A stretch of 64,000 bases of DNA from Leptodactylus fallax (taxonomy: Eukaryota; Chordata; Amphibia; Anura; Leptodactylidae): positions 806,001 to 870,000 of the forward strand of contig CAMRHE010000458.1 in NCBI GenBank assembly GCA_947044405.1, read 5' to 3'. Position 1 is the stretch's first letter. Each line of letters opens with the position of its first letter. Under the pieces are notes generated by a model. It was not told where the DNA came from. It did no database searches and saw nothing but the letters and a program-made list of their open reading frames with translations. The translations under genes were made by a program, and so were the position numbers. Below are positions 4,749 through 64,000 of this stretch, in pieces.

Positions 4749-5434
4749 GACAGGCCTTTGTGGACTTTAGGTAGACAATAAAAAGTTGCCTCTACTGGTG
4801 TCAAAGGCATCAAAAAATCAAATTCTTTATCGGAAATCAATTTTAGGGACCTGGCCTCCAAAAGCAAGGTTCGCAAAAGACCACTATATTCAACAGTCGG
4901 ATTGCCACGTAAAACCACATAATTATCCCTCTGTAGGAGGAGAGACTCACACATAGCAATATATTGGGAGACATCCATAAGTACCACATTACCTCCTTTG
5001 TCCGCTGGTTTAATAATCATCCCTTTATTCATTTCAAGACTATGTAATGCTGACATTTCTTCCTTAGTCAAATTAAAGGGACAGTGTGTATGTTTAATTT
5101 TCTGCAAATCCAATACAACTTTCTCTACAAAGACATCAATACATGATGGATCACTTATGGGGGGTAACTTAGTATTTTTATTGTGGAGATCTGTAAAGGG
5201 ACCACACCCTGTAATATCCCTCCCTTCCTGTTCAAGATTCGCTAATATTCTTACATCAGGGAAAAGATCTAACGGAATGCCCAGCTCTGAACTGACTTTT
5301 TCATCTTGTTTTTTAAAAAATTTATGCCATCTTAATTTAGGAGTGAAAAGATGTAGGTCCTTCACCCAATTAAATAAGTCAAAATCAGAGCTGGGAACAA
5401 AGAAAGTCCTTTGTTTAAAATACTTATCTCCATC
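4749..5434 (-). pseudogene. PLE-1 N-terminal RT region
   Basis: This is the upstream half of the RT reading frame. It shows the Penelope-specific block IIKPADKGGNVVLMD at about 5020-4975, followed by FYCLPKVHKG before the frame is lost in the C7/G7 run at 4743-4749. Near 5400-5410 one base is missing in a short T-rich stretch, so the ATG at 5434-5432 is out of frame with the rest. The IKPADKGG motif is typical of Penelope-like RTs and also occurs in the second PLE of this window (about 52840). Confidence 0.85.
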
Positions 5435-5462
5435 GTACTAATATTCTTAGAGGAGAGATTAA

Positions 5463-6097
5463 TTATTTGAGATTCAGTTGGTTCTGGGGTTGATTCCGAT
5501 TTCTTAGTAGGTAAGATTGTTCTAAAAAACTACCTGTCTGATTTTTTCCACCCCTCTCTCTACCTCTACCTCTCCCTCTCGGTCTTCCCCTCGTTGATCT
5601 ACTACGGGTTTCAGAATCCGAGCGTTCAGTATCTGTAGAAGATATCTCACTCTCTCCACCCCTGAATACAGATCTGTCACCTATTGTACTATAAACTTTG
5701 TTTTCTCTGAAGTCCTGTAGGTCCCGAGCAAACTGTTTATGTTTACGTTCTTTTAAATGATATTGGAACTTCTCCAAAGAATTCTGAAGCTGTACTTCTT
5801 TGGATGCAAATTCCGACTCTCCCTGAAATTTTTTATAATATCAAGTTGTTTTTTCAACCGATTTTCAAGTGTCTCTAAATGAGTTCTCTCCTCCTCCAGA
5901 AGAATCTGTAGCAATCTCAGTGAAAAGCTAGTCGCTTCTTTCTCCCATTTACTCAATAAATTTGTATTTCTAATACGGGCTGCTGGAAGCAGCCCCACCC
6001 TTAGGCCCCTAGGGACTATGTTATTTTTTATATAATTCTCCAGACTTTGATATATGGTGGTGAATATCTTTATATCTGCTATGACATTAGACTCCAA
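5463..6097 (-). pseudogene. PLE-1 amino-terminal coding region
   Basis: The first ATG (6097) opens a 114-codon frame. A second frame overlaps it (5777-5463), so one indel near 5760-5780 separates them. The protein is charged and probably helical first (KEATSFSLRLLQILLEEERTH), then has an Arg/Gly-rich stretch (RGRPRGRGRGRERGG) that could bind nucleic acid. I know no enzymatic domain here. Its first codons lie inside the segment duplicated in inverted form at 1864-2024, which marks this as the true 5' end of the element. Confidence 0.7.
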
Positions 6098-6430
6098 CGA
6101 GTGGCTATGTTTAAAAATTGATGTTTGTTCTATAATTCTTTGATATTGTTTTAACGTTTAGTTATTGAATGTTAAGTTTTATTATTGTTTGCATCAGTGC
6201 CTTTTTGATATATATGATTTTGCTTCTCAGCAAAATCTACAGCGCATACAGCAAAATCTATGCAGTAGCTCACTATGAACATATTGTGTGATAGTGAGCC
6301 ACTATGACTCTAAGTATTATTCAGGGAAGCAAAGGTAGTATTTCATTGCTAAAACAGATCATTCCTATTATGATGTGGTCCACAGAGCTTTTGACAAGGT
6401 CTACTGAAATTTTCAACCTTTGATAGGGTA

Positions 6431-6806
6431 CAAGTGCATCTCAATAAATTAGAATATTTTTGAAACATTCATTAATTTCAGTAATTCAGTAATACAATCC
6501 ATAATCAGCGTCTTCCATGATTGTGTGTCCTACTGAACCAGACTGAGGGACCATTTAAAGGCTTAGGAAACCTTGGCAGGTGACACACTGAATTTACAAT
6601 ACTGAACTTTTTCACAATATTCTAATTTCCTTAGATTTGGGTTTTCATTAGCTGTAATCCATAATCAACATTTACAGAAATAAAACACTTGAAATAGAAC
6701 ACTCTGTGTGTAAAGAATCTAGAAAATATAGGAGGTCACTTTTTTAATTCAATTACTGAAAGAAATAAACGTTTCAAAGATATTCTAATTTATTGAGATG
6801 CACCTG
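6431..6806. mobile_element. Tc1/mariner-type MITE, family B copy 1
   Basis: It is flanked by TA (6429-6430 and 6807-6808). The ends are CAAGTGCATCTCAATAAATT and its near-perfect reverse complement AATTTATTGAGATGCACCTG. Length is 376 bp with no coding capacity. The same element occurs at 19580-19948, 59366-59741 and, truncated, at 28767-28854. Confidence 0.85.
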
Positions 6807-6808
6807 TA

Positions 6809-7255: not shown

Positions 7256-8360
7256 TTAACCCTTTCATTCCTCTGTCAATTTTAGTTTTTGCATTTCCTT
7301 TTTCCCTCTCCCCATTCCAAGAGGCATAATTATTTAATTTTTCAATTCACAGAGTCACATGATGGCTTATTGTTTGCAGGACAAATTGTACTTTGTAATG
7401 GCACCATTCAATATCCTGTACAATGTACTGGGAAGCTGGAAAAAAATTGTGAATGAGGTGGAATTGGAAAAAAAAATTCTTGTGTTTAATTTTTACAACA
7501 TTCACTATGTGGTAAAAATGAGATGTTGCCTGTATTCTGCGGGTCAGTACGATCACAGCAATACCAAATTTATATAGTATTTTGTAATGTTTTGATAGCT
7601 TTTAAAAAATTTTAAACTTTGCAAAATAGAAAATTTTGTGTCGCCATGTTTTGACACCTTATGTGTATAGAACTGGGTATGGTGTTTTTTTAAGCGGGAC
7701 AAGATTTTGTCTTTATTGATACCATTTTGGGGAAGTTCTGATGGTTTGATCTCTTTTTATTCTAATTTTTATAGGAGGCAAAGTGTTGAAAAAAATTCAC
7801 CATATGGGATAAATATTTTTATTTTTTAATAATTTGGACATTTTGGAGCGTGGGGATACCTGAAGTGTTTGCTTGTTGTTGTTTATTTATTTGTATATGT
7901 GATCGAAGGGAAAGGGGGGTGATTTTAACATTTATATTTTTTGTGTTTTTTTTATACTTTTAAATTTTTTTTTTCTTTTTTCTTTTACGGTCTGACCTTT
8001 CATACTATTCACTGCAATACTAATATATTGCAGTGAATAGTAGAGGCAGCGTGTAATAGAAGAGATATAATGACAAGCCTGGGAGCCTTCAATAGGCTCC
8101 CGGCTGTCATGGCAACCAATCGCTGCCCTCCGATGGCGATTTGGAGGGCAGCGATTGTTCAAAGATGGTGGTGCCCTTGGCGACTGCGCACTTTAGATGC
8201 ATCTAAAGTGTTAACAGCTGCTATTGGTGTCGGAACCGATCGCAGCTGTTAGCGGTGGGTCCTGGCTGTATTGTACAGTCCAGATCCGCTGGGTATGGAG
8301 ATAGCTCAGCTCTGTGAGCTCTCTCCATAAACCCCTTTGTGCATAATGACATGAATTAAC
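7256..8360 (-). mobile_element. TTAA MITE, copy 2 (inverted relative to copy 1)
   Basis: TTAA near 7256 is followed by CCCTTTCATTCC, and a second TTAA lies near 8356. It contains the inverted form of the block seen in copy 1 (GGCTTATTGTTTGCAGGAC, near 7363). Further right are a small perfect hairpin (about 8000-8042, TATTCACTGCAATA) and a GC-rich segment (8080-8340). No transposase is present. The outer boundary on the right is approximate. Confidence 0.6.
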
Positions 8361-9823: not shown

Positions 9824-10835
9824 CCATGATGGCGAACTTATGGCACGCGTTCCAGAGAGGGCACGCAGAGCCCTCTCAGTTGGCACGCGCGCCGTCGCCC
9901 TGATCGCTCACTAACGGGGAATCAGGTACAGGATTCCCCGTTAGTAAACGATCGCTTCTTTCAGCTGTATGTGCAAATGCAAATGCGAATGCACATACAG
10001 CTGAAAACTGTCAGTGTAAATCGGTAAAGGCTAAATACTGTATTCTGGAAGGACCTTCTGACGTCATACGGTCACATGACAGGGTAGGCGTGTCTTTACT
10101 TGTAAGAAGGTCCTTCTACATGAAGAAAAGTTGTATCCTGAGCAGTGGAGGAACATGGAGAGATGTGGGGTGGGAGAGATGTGGGGTGGGAGAGATGTGG
10201 GGTACAGGGTGTACTGTGGGGGGGAGATGGGGATGGGGGGAGGGGACTGTGGGGGGGAGAGATGCAGGGTGTACTGTGGGGGGAGAGATGCGGGGTGCAG
10301 GGTGTACTGTGGGGGGGGGAGAGATGCGGGGTGCATGGTGTACTGTGGGGGGGAGAGATGCGGGGTGCTGGGTGTACTGTGGGGGGGGAGAGATGCGGGG
10401 TGCAGGGTGTACTGTGGGGGGAGAGATTCGGGGTGCAGGGTGTACTGTGGGGGGGAGAGATGCGGGGTGCAGGGTGTACTGTGGGGGGGAGAGATGCGGG
10501 GTGCAGGGTGTATTGTGGGAGGAGAGATGCGGGGTGCAGGGTGTACTGTGGGGGGGAGAGATGTGGGGTGCAGGGTGCAGTGGGAGAGATGCGGTCTACA
10601 GTGTGTAGTGTGGGGAGGAGAGATGCGAGGTGCAGGGTGCGTGCAAGAGGGGGGGAATGGGGGGTGCCGGCTGCGTGTGAGCAAGAGGGGGGAAATGGGG
10701 TTGCAGGCTGTGGTGAGCAAGAGGGGGGAGGCAGGTTAATTTAAGGTGAAATTGCCGTGTTGGCACTTTGCGATAATTTAGTGCGCTTTGGGTTGCAGTT
10801 TGGGCACTCAGTCTCTAAAAGGTTCGCCATCACTG
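9824..10835. mobile_element. hAT-like non-autonomous element carrying a minisatellite
   Basis: It starts CCATGATGGCGAAC and ends GTTCGCCATCACTG, imperfect inverted termini. It is flanked by a perfect 8-bp duplication CTCTAGGC (9816-9823 and 10836-10843), the hallmark length for hAT transposons. Removing it restores continuity with the right palindrome arm. No transposase is encoded. The middle is replaced by a G-rich tandem repeat. Confidence 0.9.
10145..10740 (+). repeat. G-rich minisatellite inside the hAT element
   Basis: About a dozen variants of a ~36-bp unit are visible, with the core GAGATGCGGGGTGCAGGGTG followed by TACTGTG and a run of 6 to 9 G. The plus strand is strongly G-rich with many G-runs, so G-quadruplex formation is plausible. 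Open frames over it on both strands are by-products of the repeat. Confidence 0.9.
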
Positions 10836-11179: not shown

Positions 11180-12067
<888 letters not shown>

Positions 12068-12133
12068 TAATTGCATTCATATTATGAGTAACAGAAGCTT
12101 ATATTGACAGTTAGAATGAGTTAATGCAGCAAG

Positions 12134-13110
12134 TCAATATTTGCAGTGTTGACCCTTCTTCTTCAGGACCTCGGCAATTCTCCCTAGCATGCTCTCAATC
12201 AACTTCTGGACCAAATCCTGACTGATAGCAGTCCATTCTTGCAGAATCAATGCTTTAATTTTGTCTGAATTTGTTGGTTTTTGTTTGTCCACCCGTCTCT
12301 TGATGATTGACCACAAGTTCTCAATGGGATTAAGATCTGGGGAGTTTCCAGGCCATGGACCCAAAATCTCTATGTTTTGTTCCCTGAGCCATTTAGTTAT
12401 CAAAGGCATTGTTGAGCGCCAAACTGCTCTTGGACGGTTGGGAGAAGTTGCTCTTGGAGGACATTCTGGTACCATTCTTTATTCATGGCTGTGTTTTTAG
12501 GCAAGACTGTGAGAGAGCCGTTTCCCTTGGCTGAGAAGCAACCCCACACATGAATGGTTTCAGGATGCTTTACAGTTGGCATGAGACAAGACTAGTGGTA
12601 GCGCTCACCTCTTCTTCTCCGAATAAGCTGTTTTCCAGATGTTCCAAACAATCGAAAAGGGGATTCATCAGAGAAAATGACTTTACCCCAGTCCTCAGCA
12701 GTCCACTGCCTGTACCTTTTGCAGAATATCAGTCTATCCCTGATGTTTTTTGTGGAGAGAAGTGGCTTCTTTGCTGCCCTCCTTGAGACCAGGCCTTGCT
12801 CCAAGAGTCTCCGCCTCACAGTGCGTGCAGATGCACTCACACCTGCCTGCTGCCATTCCTCAGCAAGCTCTGCACTGCTGGTAGCCCGATCCCGCAGCTG
12901 AAACACTTTTAAGAGACGGTCCTGCCGCTTGCTGGTCTTTCTTGGGCGCCCTGGAGCCTTTTTGGCACCAATGGAACCTCTCTCCTTGAAGTTCTTGATG
13001 ATGCGATAGATTGTTGACTGAGGTGCAATCTTTCTAGCTGCAATACTCTTCCCAGTTAGGCCATTTTTGTGCAGTGCAATGATGACTGCACGTTTCTTTA
13101 GAGATGACCA
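12134..13110 (-). pseudogene. Tc1-2 transposase, several frame breaks
   Basis: Read leftwards: an N-terminal helix-turn-helix region (ALHKNGLTGKSIAARKIAP), a GRPRK hook, a second DNA-binding part (SSAELAEEWQQAGVSASART), a catalytic region with FSDESPF and HVWGCFSAKGNGS, then [19 protein letters not shown] and the usual C-terminal Lys-rich tail ending near 12134. At least three frame changes are visible (near 13100, 12590 and 12400-12480), and the second catalytic Asp region is damaged. This is an old, inactive copy. Confidence 0.88.
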
Positions 13111-13384
13111 TGGTTAACAGAAGAGAAACAATGATGGCAAGCACCGGCCTCCTTTTAAAGTGTCCAGTGGTGTCATTCTTACTTAATCATGACAGATTGA
13201 TCTCCAGCCCTGTCCTCATCAACACCCACACCTGTGTTAATGGAGCAATCACTGAAACGATGTTAGGTGGTCCTTTTAAGGCAGGGCTGCAATGATGTTG
13301 AAATGTGTTTTGGGGGATAAAGTTCATTTTCTAGGCAAATATTGACTTTGCAAGTAATTGCTGTTAAGCTGATCACTCTTTATA

Positions 13385-15034
13385 CAGTCATATGAAAAAG
13401 TTTGGGCACCCCTATTAATCTTAATCATTTTTAGTTCTAAATATTTGGGTGTTTGCAACAGCCATTTCAATTTGATATATCTAATAACTGATGGACACAG
13501 TAATATTTCAGGATTGAAATGAGGTTTATTGTACTAACAGAAAATGTGCAATATGCATTAAACCAAAATTTGACCGGTGCAAAAATTTGGGTACCCTTAT
13601 CATTTTATTGATTTGAATACTCCTAACTACTTTTTACTGACTTACTGAAGCACAAAATTGGTTTTGTAACCTCACTGAGCTTTGAACTTCACAGCCAGGT
13701 GTATCCAATCATGAGAAAAGGTATTTAAGGTGGCCAATTGAAGTTGTTCTCCTATTTGAATCTCCTCTGAAGAGTGGCATCATGGGCTCCTCAAAACAAC
13801 TCTCAAATGATCTGAAAACAAAGATTGTTCAACATAGTTGTTCAGGGGGAGGATACAAAAAGTTGTCTCAGAGATTTAACCTGTCAGTTTCCACTGTGAG
13901 GAACATAGTAAGGAAATGGAAGACCACAGGGACAGTTCTTGTTAAGCCCAGAAGTGGCAGGCCAAGAAAAATATCAGAAAGGCAGAGAAGAAGAATGGTG
14001 AGAACAGTCAAGGAGAATCCACAGACCACCTCCAAAGAGCTGCAGCATCATCTTGCTGCAGATGGTGTCACTGTGCATCGGTCAACAATACAGCACACTT
14101 TGCACAAGGAGAAGCTGTATGGGAGAGTGATGCGAAAGAAGCCGTTTCTGAAAGCACGCCACAAACAGAGTCGCCTGAGGTATGCAAAAGCACATTTGGA
14201 CAAGCCAGCTTCATTTTGGAAGAAGGTCCTGTGGACTGATGAAACAAAGATTGAGTTGTTTGGTCATACAAAAAGGCGTTATGCATGGCGTCAAAAAAAA
14301 CACAGCATTCCAAGAAAAACACTTGCTACCCACTGTAAAATTTGGTGGAGGTTCCATCATGCTTTGGGGCTGTGTGGCCAATGCCGGCAGCGGGAATCTT
14401 GTTAAAGTTGAGGGTCGCATGGATTCAACTCAGTATCAGCAGATTCTTGAGAATAATGTACAAGAATCAGTGACGAATTTGAAGTTACGCCGGGGATGGA
14501 TATTTCAGCAAGACAATGATCCAAAACACAGCTCCAAATCAACTCAGGCATTCATGCAGAGGAACAATTACAATGTTCTGGAATGGCCATCCCAGTCCCC
14601 AGACCTGAATATCATTGAACATCTGTGGGATAATTTGAAGCGGGCTGTCCATGCTCGGCGACCATCAAACTTAACTGAACTGGAATTGTTTTGTAAAGAG
14701 GAATGGTCAAAAATACCTTCATCCAGGATCCAAGAACTGATTAAAAGCTACAGAAAGCGACTAGAGGCTGTTATTTTTGCAAAAGGAGGATCTACTAAAT
14801 ATTAATGTCACTTTTCTGTTGAGGTGCCCATACTTTTGAACCGGTCAAATTTTGGTTTAATGCATATTGCACATTTTCTGTTAGTACAATAAACCTCATT
14901 TCAATCCTGAAATATTACTGTGTCCATCAGTTATTAGATATATTCAAATTGAAATGGCTGTTGCAAACACCCAAATATTTAGAACTAAAAATTATTAAGA
15001 TTAATAGGGGTGCCCAAACTTTTTCATATGACTG
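13385..15034 (+). mobile_element. Tc1-like transposon Tc1-3, inserted in Tc1-2
   Basis: It is 1650 bp long. The ends are CAGTCATATGAAAAAGTTTG and the inverted CAAACTTTTTCATATGACTG, flanked by TA (13383-13384 and 15035-15036). The two ends match over roughly 200 bp (for example AATTTGACCGGT near 13568 and ACCGGTCAAATT near 14840). It is the youngest of the three nested elements. Confidence 0.95.
13782..14805 (+). pseudogene. Tc1-3 transposase, near-intact with one homopolymer frameshift
   Basis: It starts at the ATG for MGSSKQLSNDLKTKIV. It has paired helix-turn-helix domains (KKLSQRFNLSVSTVRNIVRK, TSKELQHHLAADGVTVHR), the GRPRKI hook, and all three catalytic DDE blocks: WTDETKIEL, FQQDNDPKHSSKS and SPDLNIIEHLWDNLKR. 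It ends GGSTKY. The only break I see is a run of eight A at 14293-14300, where seven would keep the frame. Length, about 340 codons, is normal for Tc1. A sequencing error there would make this a complete gene. Confidence 0.93.
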
Positions 15035-15138
15035 TAACATTCTGGAGTATATGCAAATTGCCATTAGAAAAACTGAAGCAGTAGACTTTGTAAAAATTAA
15101 TATCTGTATCATTCTCAAAACTTTTGGCCATGACTGTA

Positions 15139-15498
15139 GAGAGAAATGTGCTGCCCAGTGTTAGAAAGCTTGGTCTCAGTCGCAGGTCATGGGTCTTGCA
15201 ACAGGATAATGACCCAAAACACACAGCTAAAAACACCCAAGAATGGCTAAGAGGAAAACATTGGACTATTCTGAAGTGGCCTTGTATGAGCCCTCACCTA
15301 AATCCTATTGAGCATCTTTGGAAGACGCTGAAACATGCCATCTGGAAAAGGCACCCTTCAAACCCAAGACAACTGGAACAGTTTGCTCATGAGGAGTGGG
15401 CCAAAATACCTGTTGAGAGGTGCAGAAGTCTCATTGACAGTTACAGGAATCGTTTGATTGCAGTGATTGCCTCAAAAGGTTGTGCAACAAAATATTAA
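15139..15498 (+). pseudogene. Tc1-1 transposase, C-terminal third
   Basis: This completes the gene broken at 11956. It carries the second catalytic Asp block (LQQDNDPKHTAKNTQEWL), the final Glu block (SPHLNPIEHLWKTLKHAI) and the family-typical ending KGCATKY followed by TAA. No internal stop or frameshift is seen. Before Tc1-2 inserted, the Tc1-1 gene may therefore have been intact. Confidence 0.93.
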
Positions 15499-19330: not shown

Positions 19331-19579
19331 ACTAGGTCTCTGTACTCACTTGAAATGGCATTACCAGCTTATCTGGCAAAATGTAATTGGCAGTGGCACG
19401 AAGTGAGCAAGACCATTCTATTCCTTCTCACCATGATTGTCTTTGCAGGCAGGCCACATCCACACGTAGAACATGGTTATTATCATTATCATCTCCATCT
19501 GCTTCTCCTCCTCCTCCAAGACACTGTCAGTCATTATCCATAAAGGAATATGTATCCAGTAAATAGCAATCTGCACCTA

Positions 19580-19948
19580 CAGGTGAATCTCAATAAATTA
19601 GAATATCTTTGAAACGTTTATTTCTTTCAGTAATTATATTAAAAAAGTGACCTCCTATATTTTTTAGATTCTTTACACATAGAGTGTTCTATTTCAAGTG
19701 TTTTATTTCTGTAAATGTTGATTATGGATTACAGGTAATGAAAACCCAAATCTAAGAAAATTAGAATATTGTGAAAAAGTTCAGTATTGTAAATTCAGTG
19801 TGTCACCTGCCAAGGTTTCCTAAGCCTTTAAATGGTCCTTCAGTCTGGTTCAGTAGGACACACAATCATGGAAGACTGCTGACTATGAATTGTATTACTG
19901 AAATGAATGAACTTTTCAAAGATATTCTAATTTATTGAGATGCACCTG
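19580..19948. mobile_element. Tc1/mariner-type MITE, family B copy 2
   Basis: The ends are CAGGTGAATCTCAATAAATT and the inverted AATTTATTGAGATGCACCTG, flanked by TA at 19578-19579 and 19949-19950. The interior is reversed relative to copy 1 at 6431. It has no coding capacity. Confidence 0.85.
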
Positions 19949-19974
19949 TAGTCATTTGGATTGTCTGCAACTTT

Positions 19975-28158: not shown

Positions 28159-28766
28159 TCCATTGACAACAGTGCTCAAACAGTGGTAGAGATAGGGGAT
28201 TTCATTGGGCTTGTTCTAGTGACATATATACTTTTGCTGATTGCTTTCAATAGGTGACACTGGTATTTTTTTTTACTTACTTTTATATGAAATATGATTG
28301 TTATTTTGGGAATACCTCTTTAAAGAGATAGTCCTGAAAGAATTTAAAATCTTTCAGAACTTCAGTGGTACCTCTCAATAAAATATAGGAGATTCCATCA
28401 GGCAAAGTCACTGTGTATCACTTTTTAAAGCTTGGGGAAGTTGTAGCAATACAGAAATTAAGATAAGATCAATGAGGTTTTGTACATGCTGGGGATACTG
28501 CAGCAAAGAATTTGAGATTTATGACATTTATCTTACAGAGAATCTTGTCCTCTGTATTCAGTGTACTATCAGCTTTGCAGTGGTATATAACATTGCATAT
28601 GTTAGAGGATATGAAAGGTCCTGTTTAAAGTCAGAGACAGTAGAAAATTGGTCTAGAAGATGGAAGAGATTGAGGAGAGAGGTTAACAGCTTGGTAAGGT
28701 TGAGTAGGAGGTCATCAGGGAATATACTGGTTTTATATTTTTTGGAGACTATAGAAGCTCCTACTA
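28159..28766. other. Unassigned spacer
   Basis: No gene is seen. A 103-codon frame at 28472-28783 has no recognisable domain and runs into a MITE, so I do not call it. Confidence 0.4.
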
Positions 28767-28854
28767 CATGTGCATCTCAATAATTTAGAATATCTTTGAA
28801 ACGTCCATTCATTTCAGTAATTCAGTAATACAATTCATAATCAGCGTCTTCCAA
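28767..28854. mobile_element. Family B MITE, truncated copy 3
   Basis: It starts CATGTGCATCTCAATAATTT after TA (28765-28766), continues as in copy 1, and stops after AATCAGCGTCTTCCA. Only the first 88 bases remain. Confidence 0.75.
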
Positions 28855-43059: not shown

Positions 43060-45950
43060 CTAGATCATCCCAGCTATATACCTATCCAGATTCCGCTTGA
43101 AGATTTCAATTGATGAAGAACCCACCACCTCCCGTGGCAGCCTATTCCACTCCCTCACTACCCTTACTGTTAGAAAGTTTTTCCTAATGTCTAATCTGAA
43201 TCTCCTTCCCCTTAGTTTCATCCCATTACTTCTTGTGCTTCCTTCTGCTAATGAGAATAGGGTAGATCCCTCTGCACTGTGACAACCTTTCAGATATTTA
43301 AATACCGCTATTAAGTCTCCCCTTAGCCTTCTCTTCTGCAAACTAAGCAGTCCCAATTCTTTTAGCCTTTCTTCGTAGGACATGGTTTGTAGACCTTCCA
43401 CCATTTTGGTTGCTCTTCTCTGGACCTGCTCCAATAAATCGATGTCTTTCTTAAACTGGGGAGCCCAGAACTGTACACAGTATTCCAGGTGGGGTCTGAC
43501 CAGGGCAGAGTACAGCGGAATAATTACCTCTCTTGATCTAGCTTCAATGCTCATCTTGATACATCCTAGAATTTGGTTAGCCTTTTTATCCACCGCACCG
43601 CACTGTTGACTCATGTTGAATTTGTGATCTATTATTATGCCCAGATCCTTTTCCCCTGTACTCTCACTTAGTACTATTCCTCCCATACTATATATGCTTC
43701 TTGCATTTCTGTTACCCAGATGTAGAACTTTGCATTTGTCCCTGTTGAATACCATTTTGTTCACCTCAGCCCATTGTTCCAGTGTGTCTAAGTCCTTTTG
43801 GATGCACTCTCTCTCCTCTCTAGTGTTGGCCATTCCTCCTATCTTTGTATCATCTGCAAATTTTATTAGTTCCCCATTAATCCCATCATCCAGATCATTT
43901 ATAAAAATATTAAAAAGTACTGGGCCCAGGACAGAGCCCTGCGGCACCCCGCTTTTTACTTTCTTCCAGTTTGATGTATAGCCATTTAGAATTACTCGTT
44001 GTGCCCGATCATTTAGCCAATTGTGAACCCACCTTACTGATGTTTTATCAAAGCCATACTTGATCATTTTTTCAATAAGAATGTTATGTGATACTTTATC
44101 AAAGGCCTTACTAAAGTCAAGATATACTATGTCCACTGCATTCCCCTGGTCCAACCATTCAGTGACTTTATTATAGAAGGAAATAAGATTAGTCTGACAA
44201 GATTTATTAGGCATAAAGCCGTGCTGGCTCTGATTAATTAAAGCCTTCCCATCCAGGTACCTAATTAAATGTTCTTTAATGATTTGTTCAAAGATTTTTC
44301 CTACTATCGAGGTCAGACTTACCGGCCTATAATTTCCTGGGTCGTCCCTATTCCCCTTTTTGTAGATGGGGACCACATTTGCCCTTTTCCAATCTAGAGG
44401 GACCACTCCTGTTTCCCATGACTTATTAAAGATTATTGCAAGGGGTTCTGTTATTTCCTCTGCTAATTCTTTTAAAACTCTAGGGTGTAAATCATCCGGT
44501 CCTGGGGACTTGGTTTCCTTAATCTTAGCTAAATGTTCTCTTACCAAACCTTCACTTATAATCAGCTTGGAGTCCTCATTCCCCTCATCACTATCACCAT
44601 TAATGTTGATATTTCCATCCATTTCTTGGGAGAAGACGGATACAAAATATGAATTTAGTAACTCCACCTGCTGATCCACCATGTTAACTTTTTCACCCTT
44701 TTCGTTCTTCAGGACTCCAATGGTTTCCTTCACTTTTCTTTTGCACTTAACATATCCCCAAAAACCTTTTACCTTACTCTTAACTTCTTTTGCAAGCTTC
44801 AATTCGTATTCAGCCTTAGCTTTTTTAATGCTTATCTTGCAGAGTCTGCAAACTGCTGTATACTCTCCCTTAGATATAGCTCCCATCTTCCACTTGTTGT
44901 ATGTTTCCTTTTTCTTTTTTAGTAGGTTATGTAATTTTTTGGTCATCCATCCTGGAGTTTTTAGGTGATTCCCATTTTTCTTGCTTCTAGGTATTGTTAG
45001 TTCCTGTGCATTAATGATTTCCCTACGGAAAATTTCCCACCCCTCATGTGCATTTTTGTGCTTAAGTATTTTTCGCCATGGAATTCTACTAACCCTTACC
45101 TTTAGGTCCCTAAAATCTGCCCTAGTAAAATTGAGCCTTCTAGTCTTTGTCTTCTCAGGTCTTCTTCTTACAACCCCAAACTCGAGTATAGCATGGTCGC
45201 TGAATCCCAATGTCCCTGCTATCCTTAATTCCTTAACCATGTCCTCCTTGTTAGTTAAAACTAGGTCCAGAATGGATGTTCCTCTCGTGTTTTTTTCTAC
45301 TAACTGGGCAATGAAGTTGTCTGCTAGAGAGGATAAAAATTTGATAGAGCTTTTACTCGTAGCTGTGTGAGTTTCCCAATGAATATCTGGGTAATTAAAG
45401 TCTCCCATGATAACAATTTCAAATTTCTTCGAAAGCGTGGTCATTTGCTTTGAAAAAATCTCATCCATGTCTTCTGTCTGTCCTGGTGGTCTATAATAAA
45501 CACCTATTATGATGTCCTTATCATTGTTTTTCCCCTGAATTGTTACCCAAATATTTTCCAATAAGTTATCATTTTGTAAAACTGTGATTTCCGTGGAAAT
45601 GTGATCTTTTTTAACATACAATGCAACTCCTCCCCCTCTTTTATTAGTTCTATTTTTTTTGAATAAGTTGTATCCTTCCATCTGTATATTCCAATCATGC
45701 TTATCGTTCCACCAAGTTTCTGTAATACCAATGACATCATATTTTTCCTTCTGTATTATCAGCTCTAATTCTCCCTGTTTATTTCCCAAGCTTTGCGCGT
45801 TTATGTAAAAACATTTCAGATTGCGCTCTGGTACTTCCTTTTTTTAATTTCATTCTGAGTATCCTGTCTTGGGTCCTCATTACCACATCTAGTAACCTTG
45901 TTTAGTATATCCTTTAGCTGCATGTTCTTGTCTTCCTTTTTACTTCCCAT
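43060..45950 (-). pseudogene. CR1 ORF2: endonuclease and reverse transcriptase
   Basis: An apurinic-type endonuclease comes first (CFYINAQSLGNKQGELELI, GITETWW, GDFNYPDIHWE, GFSDHAIL). The RT follows with ETKSPGPDDLHPRVLKELA, NYRPVSLTSIVGKIFEQ, YLDFSKAFDKVSH, GVPQGSVLGPVLFNIFINDL and the catalytic FADDTK. The C-terminal conserved region has RRATKMVEGL, LSLQKRRLRGDLI and VREWNRLPREVV. The body is open for over 900 codons from about 45840 to 43060. The likely true start is the ATG at 45950-45948, 11 nt after the ORF1 stop. Reading from it fails only at a run of seven A (plus T-run 45839-45845), where one more A restores the frame. This is either a young lesion or a sequencing error. Confidence 0.93.
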
Positions 45951-45961
45951 CCCCTCTTCTT

Positions 45962-47107
45962 CTAGTTTAAAGCCCTCCTGATAAGTGTGGCAAGTCTTCT
46001 GGCAAATATGTGTTTCCCAGGCTTTGTGAGATGTATCCCATCTCTAGCAAGGAGTCCATCATAGAGGTAATTCACTCCATGGTCCAGAAATCCAAATCCT
46101 TGCTCTCTATACCACTGCCGAAGCCACTTGTTTACCTCTAGTATTTTATTCCATCTCCTGATACCATAACCATCAACTGGGAGAATTGATGAAAATACTA
46201 CCTGCGCATCCAGTTCCTTCACTTTCTTTCCTAGATTTTCAAAGTCTTTACGAATAGTTGGTAAATCATTTTTAGCCGTGTCGTTTGTACCCACATGTAA
46301 CAACAAAAATGGGTAGTTATCCTTACAGCTGAAGAGGCATGGAATCCTATCGGCCACATCCCTAACTTTTGCTCCTGGGAGGCAGCATACTTCTCGTGCA
46401 GTTAAATCTGGCCTGCAGACAGCTGCCTCTGTGCCCCTTAGCAGTGAGTCGCCCATAACTACTACTCTTCTTTTTTTCCTCGCTACGCTATTTCTTGTTG
46501 CTCCCTCTTGTCTCTGGGTGACTTTTGTTTCTTCTTTTGCTGATAGATTATTCTTATCGTTTTCATCAGTCTGCATAAGAGTTTCATATCGGTTACCTAG
46601 CTGTGTAAGTGGTGATGGCCTTGTGATCCTTTTGCATCTCTTGGTCACCTGTATCCATTTATCTGCCTCTGTAGGTTCCCTCAAGTATTCTTCCCTTACT
46701 ATATTTAGGAGGTTTGCTTCAGCCTCCACCACTGTAGGCTCTCTCATACTTTCTTCCCTTACTATATTCAAGAGGCTTGCTTCTGCTTCATCAATAAAAA
46801 CCTCACTTTCTTTGATGCCTCTCAACGTCTCTATTCTTTCTTCCAACCTCTGCACTTTATCTTCTAAAAGGGCCACTAGTTTGCATTTCATACAGGTGAA
46901 GTTGGCTTTATGGTCAGGCAAATCTGTAAACATATAGCATATGCTGCAGCTTACCATGTGAGTTTTCTCCTCTTCCATATTCCTCTCTTCTGGCCGTGCT
47001 GGGCCGCTACTCACCGCCGTGAAGTTCACTCCTGGCCCCACTGGGCTGCTGCTCGCCGCTATGAAAAGCCCCCCGGGACACAGCGGTCTACCCTCCGCAC
47101 GCTGCAA
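45962..47107 (-). CDS. CR1 ORF1: zinc-finger, coiled-coil, SGNH esterase-like protein
   Basis: 381 residues, uninterrupted. Near the middle of the first quarter is a Cys cluster (CSICYMFTDLPDHKANFTCM, then CKL), probably zinc-binding. A coiled coil follows (LLEDKVQRLEERIETLR), then two imperfect copies of a short acidic segment (EADLLNIVREE-like, EAEANLLNIVREE). The last half is an SGNH/GDSL hydrolase-type domain: VVMGDSLLRG with the nucleophile Ser, HVGTNDTAKND, and DGIHLTKPGK with the terminal Asp/His. Esterase-type ORF1 proteins are known in CR1 and L2 LINEs; their substrate is unclear. The terminal Arg-rich tail (ARRLATLIRRALN) may contact RNA. Confidence 0.9.
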   Translation of the reverse strand: MQRAEGRPLCPGGLFIAASSSPVGPGVNFTAVSSGPARPEERNMEEEKTHMVSCSICYMFTDLPDHKANFTCMKCKLVALLEDKVQRLEERIETLRGIKESEVFIDEAEASLLNIVREESMREPTVVEAEANLLNIVREEYLREPTEADKWIQVTKRCKRITRPSPLTQLGNRYETLMQTDENDKNNLSAKEETKVTQRQEGATRNSVARKKRRVVVMGDSLLRGTEAAVCRPDLTAREVCCLPGAKVRDVADRIPCLFSCKDNYPFLLLHVGTNDTAKNDLPTIRKDFENLGKKVKELDAQVVFSSILPVDGYGIRRWNKILEVNKWLRQWYREQGFGFLDHGVNYLYDGLLARDGIHLTKPGKHIFARRLATLIRRALN

Positions 47108-48907
47108 CGCTGACTCCTGCTCACAGCTGACTCACGCTCACAGCTGACCAGCGGGCACGGCGGGCTGCTCCCCGGGTGGCGGTCTGGGTGTCCGTCCCTC
47201 CTTCCCTTGTAGGGCGTCTCCGCTCTTCCTCCGCTCTTCCTCTTGCTCTTCCTCTTGCCGGCAGTAGGCCGGCAGCTCTCTCCTGGCCGCACTGGGCCGC
47301 TGCTGGGCCTCTGCTCACCGCTGTGCAAAGCACCACTCACAGCTCACAGCTGACTCCTCCCGCTCACGTGACTCACTCTCCAATGATAGAAGTAAATTAG
47401 AAATTAGGTGTGTCTACACAGGCTGACTTACTCTATAGACTGGAATACACGTGTATACTCGTGTATTGCAGTCTATAGTACTGAACCAGCGATCAGTGCA
47501 TAGCAAAGGGGAATCCTCTGACATATGACCCCATTCTGGAAACTACACCCCTGAAGGAATTTATCCAGGGGTACAGTGAGCATTTTTAACACCCAAATGT
47601 TGCATCAATTTATTTTCCAGAAATGAATACACAGATGATGGTGATAGGAGAAAATGACAATTTTTCCAGGAATACGTTATTTCAGTGTGTAATATGTTGT
47701 GCCCAGCTTGTATCAGATATGAACGCTCCATAAGCTGTTGTGCCTAGGATACCCATTTAACAGATTTTGGAGTGTGTGTCTCTGCTGACACAAGCTGGGC
47801 AGAACACATCGTGCACTGAAATGGCAAATCTCTGTGCATTCATTTCTCTAAATTAAATTAATGTAACGGTCAAGGGTTAAAAATGCTCGCTACACCACTT
47901 GATAAATCCCTTCAGTGGTGTGGTTTCCAAAATGGGGTCACAAGTCTGCGGATTCCACTTTACTGGCAATTCAGGGTCTCTGCAAAAGTGGCATTATGTC
48001 CAAAAACCAAAATATCACTCCTTCCATTTTGTGCCCGGTTGTGCCCAAACAGCAGTTTACGCCCACATATGGCATTGTTAAGTTAGTTATCCTGGGTACA
48101 ACAGTGTCATACATGTGGGCATAAACTGCTGCTTGGGCACACAGGAGGGTGCAGATGTGAAGGGGTGCAACTGACACTCCTTGCCTTCCATGCACTGACG
48201 TGTGCCCAAAAATCAGTTTACACCCACATGTGGGGTATTTCTGTGCTCTGGAGAAATTGCTTAACAAACTGTGAGATGCATTTTCTCCTTTAACGTTTTG
48301 TGAATGTGTTAACTTTAGGGCTAAATGAATGTGTTAGTGGAAAAAAATGAAATGTCTAAATTTCACCTCCATATTTCTTTAATTCCTGTGAAATACTTAA
48401 AGGGTTAACAAACATCCCAAATGCTGTTTTGAATTATTTGAGGGGTGAAGTTTTGAAAATAGGGTGATTTATTGGGGTTTCCAATATATAGGCCTTTATA
48501 ATCCCCTTCAGAACTGAAGTGGTCCCTAAAAAATTAGTTTGGGAAATTTTTTTTGTAAATCTGGAAAATCGCTGTTACACTTGTAAGCCTTCTAAAGTCC
48601 AAAATAAATTAAAGGACGATTAAAAGATGATTCCAATATAAAGCAGAGAAATGGAAGATAATATTTATTAATGTATTTGGGTAGTATGACTACTAGTAGT
48701 CATACTATCTGTCTGAAAAGTAGAGCATTTATTTTTTTATAAATAAATACAAAAAATATTGATGAAGTACAATGTGTGACAAAAAACAATCTCATATCAC
48801 TTGTGTAAGCGTCTCAAAGTTATTGCCATATAAAGTGACACATGTCAGTTTTGAAAAACGAGGCCTAGTCCTTAATGCACTTTTCGACTGGGTCCTTAAG
48901 GGGTTAA

Positions 48908-59311: not shown

Positions 59312-59365
59312 ATAAAGTGTTTAAGGGCTCCCTTACTATGTCTCCTGTTTTCAATCATTCAGCTA

Positions 59366-59741
59366 CATGTGCATCTCAATAAATTAGAATATCTTTGAAA
59401 CGTTTATTTCTTTCAGTAATTGAATTAAAAAAGTGACCTCCTATATTTTCTAGATTCTTTACACACAGAGTGTTCTATTTCAAGTGTTTTATTTCTGTAA
59501 ATGTTGATTATGGATTACAGGTAATGAAAACCCAAATCTAAGAAAATTAGAATATTGTAAAAAAGTTCAGTATTGTAAATTCAGTGTGTCACCTGCCAAG
59601 GTTTCCTAAGCCTTTAAATGGTCCCTCAGTCTGGTTCAATAGGACATACAATCATGGAAGACGCTGATTATGAATTGTATTACTGAATTACTGAAATGAA
59701 CGAACGTTTCAAAGATATTCTAATTTATTGAGATGCACCTG
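59366..59741. mobile_element. Tc1/mariner-type MITE, family B copy 4
   Basis: It starts CATGTGCATCTCAATAAATT and ends AATTTATTGAGATGCACCTG, flanked by TA at 59364-59365 and 59742-59743. Its interior has the same orientation as copy 2. Confidence 0.85.
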
Positions 59742-59942
59742 TATGTAGTGAACTGCTGCATGGGTTATTCATTTGAATGAAGCTGCATTGTGGCTTCATG
59801 TACTGTAAAGTGCGTGCATTGCTGACCAGGGAAGTTCAGAAAACTAAACACATCACTTAGGATTGATGGGGCCCCAGGTGTCAGACCTCCACCAATCCAA
59901 AAGTGATAGCATAACCTAGCAATATGTCATCATGTTATGGCA

Positions 59943-60270
59943 ACCCCTTAAGGACGCAGCTTACTTTATCCTTTAGAACTAATTATTTTCATTTTTTTTA
60001 ATTGTCATATTCCAAGAGCCATAACTTTTATATTTTATGTTGCTTTAGCCATATGTGGGCTATTTTTTGCAGAAAAAGTAGTATTTTTAACGGTGCAAAT
60101 TTTAGAGCACAAATAACACAATGTAACAATTTTAAAAAAAATATTTGTTCCCAGTTGTTAAGTGTGTTTTCCTGATTGTTTGTACCTTAAATGAATAGAA
60201 AAAAAGTTATTATTCCCTGTAAACTTTGCTTTTGTGGTCAGCACAATGATATTTTGAAATTGATCTATTT
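59943..60270 (+). mobile_element. TTAA MITE family fragment
   Basis: It begins with a terminus-like AACCCCTTAAGGACGCAG (compare the right end of family C) and contains the AT-rich block CCAAGAGCCATAACTTTTAT, then CATATGTGGGCTATTTTTTG. Homology fades before the heat-shock-like array at 60304. Confidence 0.5.
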
Positions 60271-60303
60271 TTAAGATTATTCGCAATATTTCAAGATACT
60301 TAA

Positions 60304-60375
60304 GAAGCTTCTGGAATTGTGAGAACTATCAAGAAGTTTCTAGAACTGGCCAGAATTATCTAGAACTTTCTGGGA
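60304..60375 (+). promoter_or_regulatory. Heat-shock element array
   Basis: The first element is GAAgcTTCtgGAA (60304-60316), three perfect inverted pentamers. From 60323 a second array runs in strict 5-bp phase to 60375: GAA, aTC, GAA, TTC, GAA, ggc, GAA, aTC, GAA, TTC, gGA. This gives seven perfect units, three with one mismatch and one poor. Such alternating nGAAn/nTTCn units are the binding site of heat-shock factor trimers, and long phased arrays bind cooperatively. The array ends 24 bp upstream of a TATA box. Confidence 0.8.
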
Positions 60376-60398
60376 CTGCACAGAATTGTAGGTAGCTG

Positions 60399-60406
60399 TA
60401 TAAATA
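60399..60406 (+). promoter_or_regulatory. TATA box (TATAAATA)
   Basis: TATAAATA lies directly downstream of the heat-shock array and about 370 bp upstream of the gene's first ATG. Transcription would be expected to start near 60430. An AATAAA at 60703-60708 raises the alternative that 60300-60750 is an LTR-like unit. Confidence 0.6.
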
Positions 60407-60739
60407 CAGTTATATAGGGCCACTATAGCCCTTCCTGAGAGACGGAGAGACAGGATCTAATTGATTGGGATTGCATAGTAAGTGGGCAATGGCCATCACA
60501 AAAGGGAATTGACCTAGACAGACAGGTGTGAATTCAATATCTATTCAGATTCTGATAACAACAGTATTCACAATTCACCCCACACCCATTACAGGAGGAG
60601 CTTAGGAATGTAAATGTATGTATTGTGCGTTACTCTGGTACCGGGTGATCAATCTTGCTCTGCTGAATCCTCAGTACACTCTTGAACTTTAATACTGCAT
60701 GGAATAAAGACCATTTTTATCAAGTTTGGAGAGACATCC

Positions 60740-60752
60740 TTTTTCCTTACAG
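60740..60752 (+). other. Candidate 3' splice site in the 5' UTR
   Basis: TTTTTCCTTACAG is an excellent acceptor just 25 bp before the first ATG (60778). A 5' UTR intron is therefore possible, for instance from a CAG/GTGTGA near 60528. It is inferred, not shown. Confidence 0.4.
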
Positions 60753-60777
60753 TTCACAGCAACTTAGTTTACAGTAG

Positions 60778-60984
60778 ATGGCATCAAGAGGTTGCATACA
60801 TCCAGCAGACGCATTTTGCTACGTATGTTCCAGTTTATAAAGACAAGAGCGAAAAAGTACTCTGTGGAAGCATCTGCTAAGATGTGTGAGGCCTACAAAG
60901 CATACTTCGGGATGCCTGTTGGTGACCAAGACAAACCATGGGCTCCTCATTTCACATGTGAGCACTGCAAGAAAACTCTTGAAG
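60778..60984 (+). pseudogene. Uncharacterised Cys-rich gene, exon 1
   Basis: The ATG at 60778 encodes MASRGCIHPADAFCYVCSS and then loses the frame at 60832-60834, where one base appears to be missing. The next frame continues at once with FIKTRAKKYSVEASAKMCEA, then YKAYFGMPVGDQDKPWAPHF and TCEHCKKTLEG. The layout C-x2-C, about 45 residues, C-x2-C suggests an N-terminal zinc domain, somewhat like the insect ZAD fold (inference). The exon ends at a perfect donor G/GTAAGT (60985). An in-frame ATG after the shift would lose the first Cys pair. I remember related proteins in cnidarians, arthropods and amphibians only as uncharacterised. Confidence 0.7.
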
Positions 60985-61113
60985 GTAAGTGGATAAATGC
61001 TACTCTCTTAAATAGCAGATTAACTGTGTTAATATTGTAAATATCACTAGTCATTAGTGTGAAATAGGCCTAAATCAAATTCTCAATCCAAATATTATTT
61101 TGTTTGCTTATAG
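60985..61113 (+). other. Intron of the Cys-rich gene (129 bp)
   Basis: GTAAGT at the 5' end and TTGCTTATAG at the 3' end. Phase 1: the split codon G/GT gives Gly. Splicing joins KTLEG to WYRGEKRAMHFAIPR, which reads as continuous family sequence. Confidence 0.85.
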
Positions 61114-62591
61114 GTTGGTACAGGGGAGAGAAGAGAGCCATGCATTTTGCTATCCCAAGAATTTGGCGTGAACCGAGTGATCACTCAACAAATTGCTACT
61201 TCTGCATGGTGGACCCTTCCAAACGTTGCACTGGCAAAAATGCACCGCCTGTAACATATCCTGACATTCCGTCATCTATTGCCCCAGTACCACACTGCCC
61301 TGAACTTCCTGTACCAACACCTCCAGACAGAGCTACACCACCTTCAAAAGAAAGCAGCAGGTCAGACATCGAGGAAGACGTTGAAGATCACGATTTCTCT
61401 TCATATGCAGATGAGGAGCGTAAGCCATACTACCCTAACCAAAAAGACCTCAATGATCTGATCAGAGACCTTGGTCTCACCAAGTCCAACGCTGAGCTTC
61501 TGACATCAAGGCTCAAGCAATGGAACTTATTAGATGAAAGCATCCAAGTCACAGATCAGAGGAAGCATCACCAAGTTTTTTCAATCTTCTTCAGTCATCA
61601 AGATGGACTGTGCTTCTGCAACAATGTGGCCGGTTTATTCGAGGCTATAGGTATCACCTGTAACCCGACTGAGTGGCGCCTCTTCATAGACAGCTCATGC
61701 CAGAGCCTCAAAGCCGTGCTGCTTCACAATGGGAACAAGTATTCATCTCTTCCTGTAGCTCACTTGGTGCACCTGAAAGAGGAATACACCAGTGTCAAGA
61801 TGTTGCTAGGTGCCTTGAAGTATGATGAGTACGGCTGGGAAGTTATCAGAGATTTCAAAATGGTGTCATTCTTGATGGGCCTCCAAGGTGGTTTTACTAA
61901 GTATCCTTGCTTTATTTGCCTTTGGGAAAGCCGGGATACTGAAGCGCACTACCACAGGCGGGACTGGCCTCAGCGGACAGAGTTCACTGTGGGGAAGAAC
62001 AATGTAAAGTGGGAGCCACTGGTGGACCCATGCAAGGTGCTGATGCCACCACTACACATTAAGTTGGGGCTCATAAAACAATTTGTCAGGGCTCTAGATA
62101 AGGAGTCGAGAGCTTTCAATTACCTCCAAGATCTTTTACCTAAGCTGTCTGAAGCAAAGATCAAAGCTGGTGTCTTCGTCGGACCACAAATCAAGAAGAT
62201 CATAGAGTGCAGTGAATATCCCAAGAAGCTGAATAGGAAGGAGAGAGCAGCTTGGAACAGTTTTGTCGCAGTGGTACGCGGCTTCCTAGGCAATCATAAA
62301 GATGAAAACTATGTACAACTGGTTCAGACTCTGATAAAGAACTATGCTGCAATGGGCTGCAGGATGTCACTCAAAATCCATATCCTTGATGCTCATCTTG
62401 ATAAGTTCAAAGAGAACATGGGAACTTATTCAGAGGAGCAAGGCGAGCGCTTTCACCAGGACATTATGAACTTTGAACGCCGTTACCAAGGACAATATAA
62501 TGAAAACATGAAGGGCGACTATATTTGGGGATTGATTCGTGAAACTGATTTGTAGTATAGTCGTAAATCGCGGAAAACCGCACACTTCTGA
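61114..62591 (+). pseudogene. Uncharacterised Cys-rich gene, exon 2 (premature stop near the end)
   Basis: The exon is open for about 480 codons to TAG at 62553-62555. Features in order: FAIPRIWREP, CYFCMVDPSKRC (second Cys pair), a Pro-rich acidic linker (SSRSDIEEDVEDHDFSSYAD), FIDSS (61686), VIRDFKMVSFLMGLQGGFTK with YPCFICLW, LMPPLHIKLGLIKQFVRAL, then HILDAHLDKF and SEEQGERFHQDIMNFERRYQ. The Asp of FIDSS, the Asp of RDFK and the Glu of SEEQGE, plus the G.TK..C..C block, recall CACTA-type DDE transposases. That is a hypothesis. After the TAG the frame goes on with YSRKSRKTAHF and then TGA (62589), a plausible native basic C-terminus, so TAG probably replaced CAG. GC content is clearly above that of the flanks. 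Confidence 0.75.
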
Positions 62592-64000
62592 ACAGTTTTT
62601 GGTAATCTGTGTAAATTTGCAATGCATATAGTGTTCTTAGTCTGACTGTATAAATGAGAAGATGCAAAATCGTCTGTTTCTATAGTAAAAATGCATAATT
62701 TTCGTTGCCGTGGTCACAAAAACGAAGTTTATGATGAATGTAAGCAATTTTTAATTTGTTTTAGACATAAGCAATTGGAATATAACATTTAAAAGCTGGG
62801 AACAAAATTTGTGTTACATAGTGTAATTTAATGATTAACTTTTGTTTCTTTTTCTAGAAGGAAATGGGAAAAACTGCAGATTTTGATCTATAAATATTAC
62901 GCTACTTGCAATATGGTAAGAATACTTTTTATTTTGTGGGTCAATATGATTGCAGTGATACCGGATATATATACTGTATATAGGTTTTTTCAATGTTTTG
63001 CTGCACTCTTTTCTAAAAAAATAAACATTTGTTTTTGGGTAGCTATATTTTGAGACCCATAACTTTTGTATTTTTCCAACAAATGGGCTCTGTGAGGGAT
63101 TTTTTCTGGGATAAGTTAAAGTTTTCATTACTGCCTTTCTGGAATTTTTAATAGATTGGCATTACTTTTTTGGGTGGCATAATGAACAAAAATGATTTTA
63201 GCATTATTTTTTATTTTTATTTGTAAGAGAAAAAGTATAATTGTATAGGTCAGGTTGTTACAGGCATGGCAATACCAAATATGTGTAAATTTAAATTTTT
63301 ATTTTTGATACCATGGAATACCATTGTAATAGGAAAAGGGATCTTGTTTTTTTCTTTTTTTACATATTCCATAAACATTTTTTTACTTTACATTAGGCTT
63401 TATATTCTGTCTGAATGATTTAACTTTATACCAAAAAGTATGCTAAGACATAGGTACAGAGTTTAAAGGTTTTTCCATCTGCTCTTGCCTATAGGGACAC
63501 CAGTCATATGTACTGAAGAGAACATGGTGATGCGCAAAATATGCATATATTATGGCATGACGTGTACATTTAGTTTTAAATTAAATAATTCACAAAAACA
63601 TAAAAAAATGAATTTTGATTTACAATTATTTCACTCTAATAATTCACACAACCCATAGTTAAATAAAATATGACATTTAGTCAAATATTTAGCATTGAGT
63701 AAATGTAGATCTATCCCTGAGGCTATATTCTTATTAATTATAGTTAACATTGTGAAGAAAAAGAAACGAGTTTACATAAAAAGCCATCAGTAGATGACTA
63801 GGATTGCAGCATGTATTAATTGATTTATTCCCAAGGGAAGCTTAAACAGCAAAAACAATTATACTGACTCTCCTCATGTACTTTCAATTCACATACTTAG
63901 ATGATTTTGCTTGTAAATATCTTGAAAGTTTAAGCAGTTTATAGTTTCCCATAGCATGAATACATGAATCATAAATATGATAAATTCATTATGATTTTAA
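62592..64000. other. Gene-free stretch with a MITE-family fragment
   Basis: No coding region is seen. The part 63010-63320 (GAGACCCATAACTTTTGTAT, GGGCTCTGTGAGGGATTTTT) belongs to the same AT-rich repeat family as 60000-60130. The last 600 bases are plain AT-rich DNA. Confidence 0.4.

Follow-up and report, generated by a model that had tools for sequence, protein, structure and literature searches.

A Chapaev3-type transposon of Leptodactylus fallax with a candidate heat-shock promoter in front of its transposase gene

The window analysed here is a stretch of 64,000 nucleotides from Leptodactylus fallax (assembly GCA_947044405.1, contig CAMRHE010000458.1, positions 806,001 to 870,000 of the forward strand). 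Close to its right end lies a DNA transposon with terminal inverted repeats, a two-exon transposase gene and, 5' of this gene, a phased array of heat-shock elements (HSEs), the pentamer motifs of heat-shock factor (HSF) (Table 1). The element is present in hundreds of copies in the genome.

The array was scored as alternating nGAAn/nTTCn pentamers at a 5-bp phase. Its main run keeps a single phase at 60323-60375 and consists of 11 pentamers, 7 of them perfect and the other 4 retaining the G or the inverted C. The pentamer at 60378 fails and is followed by a perfect GAA at 60383, and 6 bp 5' of the main run a perfect GAAnnTTCnnGAA trimer is located at 60304-60316 in a different phase. The score of 13.5 compares with best scores of 8.5, 8.5 and 8.0 in 900 simulated 64-kb windows (300 for each of three Markov orders), and it was reached in none of 3000 local 800-bp simulations. 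Within the window, the adjoining trimer is the sole other run scoring at least 6. Simpler patterns are weak as evidence, with 2 plain trimers against 0.89 expected and 6 matches against 4.03 expected for a four-unit pattern with 2 mismatches. The first-pass annotation had described a phased pentamer array and a TATAAATA box in front of the gene, and had named chance in AT-rich sequence and an unrelated repeat as possible sources of the array. Array and box are indeed present, the score lies far above the simulations, and the array is situated inside the transposon's own ends, 187 bp from the left one.

A search of the 2.50 Gb genome gave 89 scored matches of 3257 first-look candidates; 88 of them are other copies, which are 94-96% identical to the window copy. 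Of these 88, 49 were examined, the first 29 and then the next 20 by score, and as the best-scoring ones they are biased to intact copies. The promoter region is held by 47 of the 49 and is itself absent from copies L016 and L045. All 47 carry an array scoring at least 8.5, with the full score of 13.5 in 36, and in every copy that keeps it the array is located directly 5' of the TATA-like box. None of the 49 has the promoter region without the array. Genome-wide, a 43-base piece of the array gave 749 matches with at most 3 mismatches, and the reversed control gave none. The earlier suggestion that the array travels with the gene thus holds among the copies of this one genome.

The gene had been described as Cys-rich, with two exons, clean splice sites and a GC content above its surroundings, all of which is found in the sequence: the exons have a GC content of 0.449 and 0.459, compared with 0.279 in the intron and 0.384 and 0.280 in the flanks. 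In the window copy, exon 1 is frameshifted and exon 2 contains a premature TAG ahead of the family stop, which ends at 62591; the complete protein therefore cannot be made from this copy. Neither defect was noted in the first-pass annotation. In the 49 other copies the spliced frame is uninterrupted with GT and AG sites in 20, disrupted in 27 and incomplete in 2; examples from open copies encode 561 residues, in line with a two-exon transposase of about 556-562 residues. D263, D317, C339, H385, H493, H498 and E515 are invariant among 71 relatives and C336 is kept in at least 90% of them; all are present in the window protein. The protein has a RAG1-like transposase fold and the DDE, C(2)C, LH and H(4)H motifs of Chapaev3, where the choice of the three acidic (DDE) residues is our own assignment. 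Searches of Pfam, NCBIfam, Rfam and the sequences of solved structures gave no family, apart from the CxxC...CxxC stretch of exon 1, which weakly resembles zf-AD in 19 of the 71 relatives and may serve these transposases in DNA binding or pairing. The family profile had no match among PDB sequences at E values up to 10, and Foldseek had none among viral proteins at E <= 0.001.

The ends of the element were located from the window and compared with other copies. The imperfect terminal inverted repeat of ~120 bp has a local score of 45, compared with a maximum of 35 in 1000 shuffles. An exact search with the terminal 12 bases and one mismatch matched the two ends and nothing else. Since chance alone would give 1.12 matches, the assignment of the ends is based on the longer repeat and the alignment of other copies. 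Of 29 other aligned copies, 27 start at 60108-60121 and 25 stop at 62819-62838, as had been predicted from the window alone. Among the ends placed in the 49 other copies, 35 of 45 on the left and 26 of 44 on the right start with CAC. Both ends were placed in 40 copies, and 12 of these are flanked by an exact 3-bp duplication, compared with 3.9 under shuffled pairing; for the 19 copies in which the two ends both start with CAC, the number is 10. Each of the 12 duplications has an A before it and a T after it, and they comprise 8 TWA, 2 AAA and 2 TTT. A repeat at 7288-7758 aligns across the joined flanks of the element in the manner of an empty site (299 of 503 columns), at low identity.

CAC...GTG ends together with C(2)C, LH and H(4)H motifs are described as hallmarks of Chapaev, TWA duplications with insertion between A and T as those of Chapaev3, and two-exon transposases of 562 and 556 residues for Merrow and Garfield (in the parts of PMC4079192 consulted). 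As the window element agrees with each testable Chapaev3 hallmark, by these published features it is classified as a Chapaev3-type CMC transposon of the two-exon Merrow/Garfield branch. What had been called an uncharacterised, transposase-like gene is accordingly a transposase gene, and one of a known kind. Membership of Transib/RAG1 was dropped in view of the duplication, which is 3 bp and AT-only instead of 5 bp and GC-biased. No DNA of relatives was found in the viral contigs, genome contigs, plasmids or phages searched, so that the element DNA was compared within its own genome only.

Table 1. Coordinates of the transposon and its parts in the window
Feature	Position	Strand	Remarks
Whole Chapaev3-type transposon, 2,707 bp	60117..62823	+	Inverted repeats, flanks and ends of other copies
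Target-site duplication TAA, left, preceded by A	60114..60116	.	Fits the rule of TWA between A and T (PMC4079192)
Left terminal inverted repeat, starts CACAATG	60117..60241	+	90/122 aligned bases match the right end
Heat-shock-element array	60304..60385	+	Score 13.5; kept in 47/47 copies holding the region
TATA-like box	60399..60406	+	TATAAATA in the window copy, TATAACTA in most other copies
Second TATA-like stretch, ATATAGG within TTATATAGG	60412..60418	+	Kept in most copies; putative role
Possible 5' untranslated intron, GTAAGT ... TTTTTCCTTACAG	60478..60752	+	Suggested by motifs only
Coding exon 1	60778..60984	+	Frameshifted in the window copy; CxxC...CxxC, weak zf-AD likeness
Coding intron, 129 bp, GTAAGT...TTATAG	60985..61113	+	Donor GTAAGT in 44/47 other spliceable copies
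Coding exon 2, RAG1-like catalytic core	61114..62591	+	TAG at 62553-62555, seen in no other copy
Right terminal inverted repeat, reverse strand starts CACTATG	62705..62823	-	Same alignment as the left repeat
Target-site duplication TAA, right, followed by T	62824..62826	.	

The window contains a broken copy of a Chapaev3-type transposon with its own array of HSF motifs, and we consider it probable that the transposase of the family is transcribed under the control of HSF1; heat stress would be likely to activate the transposon. Trimers of HSF1 would occupy the array immediately 5' of the TATA-like box when the cell is exposed to heat or protein stress. The transcript would begin after this box and would lose the 129-bp coding intron and perhaps the untranslated intron. 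Translation would give a transposase of ~561 residues that contains a RAG1-like core; this enzyme would excise the element at the CAC termini and reinsert it chiefly at A-TWA-T targets.

Several observations weigh against this reading. Conservation of the HSE cores does not exceed that of the remaining sequence, with 12 differences in 1548 positions compared with 1256 in 123721 (0.78% and 1.02%, P 0.44, 47 copies); stronger core conservation had been indicated by 28 copies (4/921 compared with 12/1372 in the rest of the array), which was not upheld in the 47. First, second and third codon positions in exon 2 also change alike (1.01, 0.99 and 1.07%), so that the copies drift freely, with no sign of selection. 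They descend from one master, so that their arrays represent one evolutionary event. Part of the array is made up by a 30-bp tandem duplication found by Tandem Repeats Finder. With the second unit masked, the remaining one scores 8.5, which was equalled in 3 of 300 simulated windows, and this score together with another array of at least 6 within 60 bp occurred in none of the 300. The perfect TATAAATA box, correctly noted in the first-pass annotation for the window copy, is private to it, as position 60404 is a C in 46 of 47 others, giving TATAACTA, and a G in one; the comparison of the 47 copies also led us to drop TATAAACA as the family form of the box. As to the ends, many right termini now lack CAC, and 4 of the 12 exact duplications are AAA or TTT and not TWA.

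The lack of a canonical TATA box in the other copies and the even conservation of the cores would also be explained if the array were real and mobile but idle, with an ordinary constitutive or germline promoter driving the transposase and the heat-shock motifs contributing little. The phase, density and length of the array and its position directly 5' of the TATA-like box in every array-keeping copy argue against this, and we regard an idle array as unlikely, although it is the most serious of the alternatives. In plant En/Spm, the transposase binds subterminal repeats. As the window element is of CMC type and its array lies close to the left end, the array might consist of such binding sites that merely resemble HSEs. 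It is, however, one-sided, with scores of only 2.5 at the right end (62592-62823) and 3.0 in the left 187 bp, and alternating GAA/TTC units at a 5-bp phase correspond to the layout of HSF sites, which makes this explanation very improbable.

The array may instead have been imported by another element, for example a solo long terminal repeat (LTR), nested in the ancestor of the family. LTRs with HSEs exist (described in the part of PMC12810828 consulted), the window element is longer than Merrow (2,451 bp) and Garfield (2,289 bp; lengths as given in PMC4079192), and an AATAAA is present at 60704. No TG...CA segment with an end repeat of 5 or 6 bases surrounds the array, but one with 4 does (60227-60761). 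An import of this kind has a rather low probability, and even if it took place, the array moves with the family now. The first-pass annotation had left a choice between a mobile and a domesticated gene. A domesticated, heat-regulated host gene would agree with the clean exon-intron structure, but the window copy is dead, with its frameshift and premature stop, the element exists in hundreds of copies with transposon ends and duplications, and the three codon positions change at equal rates. Domestication is thus refuted for this locus, with next to no probability left to it, whereas the mobile nature of the gene is supported.

The distribution of the protein is consistent with movement between distant animals. 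The window protein is 82% identical to a 562-residue fish protein (P0004), which has the length of Merrow and for that reason may be Merrow itself. Among 31 proteins compared in a tree (the window protein, 13 named and 17 unnamed ones, chosen from 120 listed), the window protein groups with those of Metynnis, Serrasalmus and Pygocentrus at 100/100, and the two proteins of the frog Phyllobates are placed in a different clade (100/98). A fish-frog identity of 93% and the neutral drift among the copies fit a recent horizontal transfer, for which Merrow, Garfield and Conan are reported examples. Since eukaryotes have HSF and its pentamer motif in common, a promoter of this type would be expected to function in the majority of hosts; this would suit an element moving between distant animals. 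The near-universal heat-shock response may have been co-opted by this DDE cut-and-paste transposon as a promoter of broad host range, through which HSF1 would turn on the RAG1-like transposase under stress in whatever animal the element enters. This would explain the fish-frog spread, and in the present genome it would have seeded ~750 mobile HSF1 arrays, which could place nearby genes under heat control. We offer this wider proposal tentatively, as a possibility with somewhat less than even chances.

Other repeats were observed elsewhere in the window. A Penelope-like element at 3145-6157 (-) has reverse transcriptase and GIY-YIG domains, and its named relatives are almost all from frogs and toads, with one from the fish Coilia, which in itself points to an anuran host. 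A long interspersed nuclear element (LINE) at 43063-47131 (-) has an endonuclease and a reverse transcriptase, and an upstream open reading frame with a GDSL-like domain; its closest named relatives are from birds, turtles and lizards, with only 43-44% for Xenopus. A short inverted-repeat element occurs at 59352-59743, 6429-6808, 19567-19950 and 28761-28853 (two copies 94-97% identical, one partial). Several pieces of Tc1-type transposases are present on both strands at 11180-15498, and a GC-rich tandem array with a 34-bp unit at 10157-10740.

If the promoter works, the element would represent a vertebrate cut-and-paste transposon that is induced by heat, whereas the demonstrated cases in the literature consulted are Helitrons, DIRS-1 and LTR elements. 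It would suggest, in concrete and testable form, how a transposon with horizontal movement can be expressed in hosts that are not related, namely through a transcriptional response that is among the most conserved in eukaryotes. It also predicts bursts of transposition after heat, and hundreds of young, near-identical HSF1 sites in the genome of an ectotherm, which may have reshaped the response of this animal to heat shock, as happened through Helitrons in Caenorhabditis.

Among known systems, Merrow and Garfield are closest, as described in the available parts of PMC4079192. They share the CAC...GTG ends, TWA between A and T, the C(2)C, LH and H(4)H motifs, a two-exon transposase (562 and 556 residues, compared with 561 here), a size within 2.3-2.7 kb and horizontal transfer. 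The published exons encode 78 and 484 residues, whereas the intron follows codon 69 here, but the totals agree. Both elements are shorter than the window element, which bears the HSE array; the terms heat, promoter, stress and TATA do not occur in the main text of that paper. Transib, RAG1 and ProtoRAG differ in their 5-bp duplication from the 3-bp, AT-rich one found here, and the family profile matched none of the sequences of solved structures. At the right terminus, the heptamer CACTATG (62817-62823) is present in 24 of 44 placed copies, with left ends mostly CACCATG; CACTATG is also the terminal heptamer of amphioxus ProtoRAG (in the part of PMC8289069 consulted).

CMC elements are mobile in a fungus at 37 degrees, where the HSEs named are in the LTRs of other elements (according to parts of PMC12810828). 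The combination of a Chapaev/CMC transposon with an HSE promoter was not found in the literature searched, including parts of PMC12810828 and PMC7922186. Heat-shock promoters are already known in other mobile elements, namely Helitron1_CE, DIRS-1 and ONSEN. Heat-shock promoters, heat activation or putative HSEs are described for the slime-mould retroelement DIRS-1 (PMC2685390, in part), the plant retroelement ONSEN (PMC6927752, in part) and the fungal retroelements TCN12/TCN3 (PMC12810828, in part). The Tc1/mariner blurry promoters also function in distant hosts and are tied to horizontal transfer, but they are AT-rich with weak core motifs, whereas the window element has a dense array for a single widespread stress factor (compared with the part of PMC6446368 consulted). 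A parallel in promoter design is Helitron1_CE of Caenorhabditis, a DNA transposon with HSEs in its own transposase promoter, whose copies spread HSF sites (same part of PMC6927752). The window element likewise has an HSE array in its putative promoter that is inherited by its copies. Helitron1_CE is a rolling-circle element of a nematode for which HSF-1 binding and induction were shown, while the window element is of the DDE cut-and-paste type and is known from its motifs.
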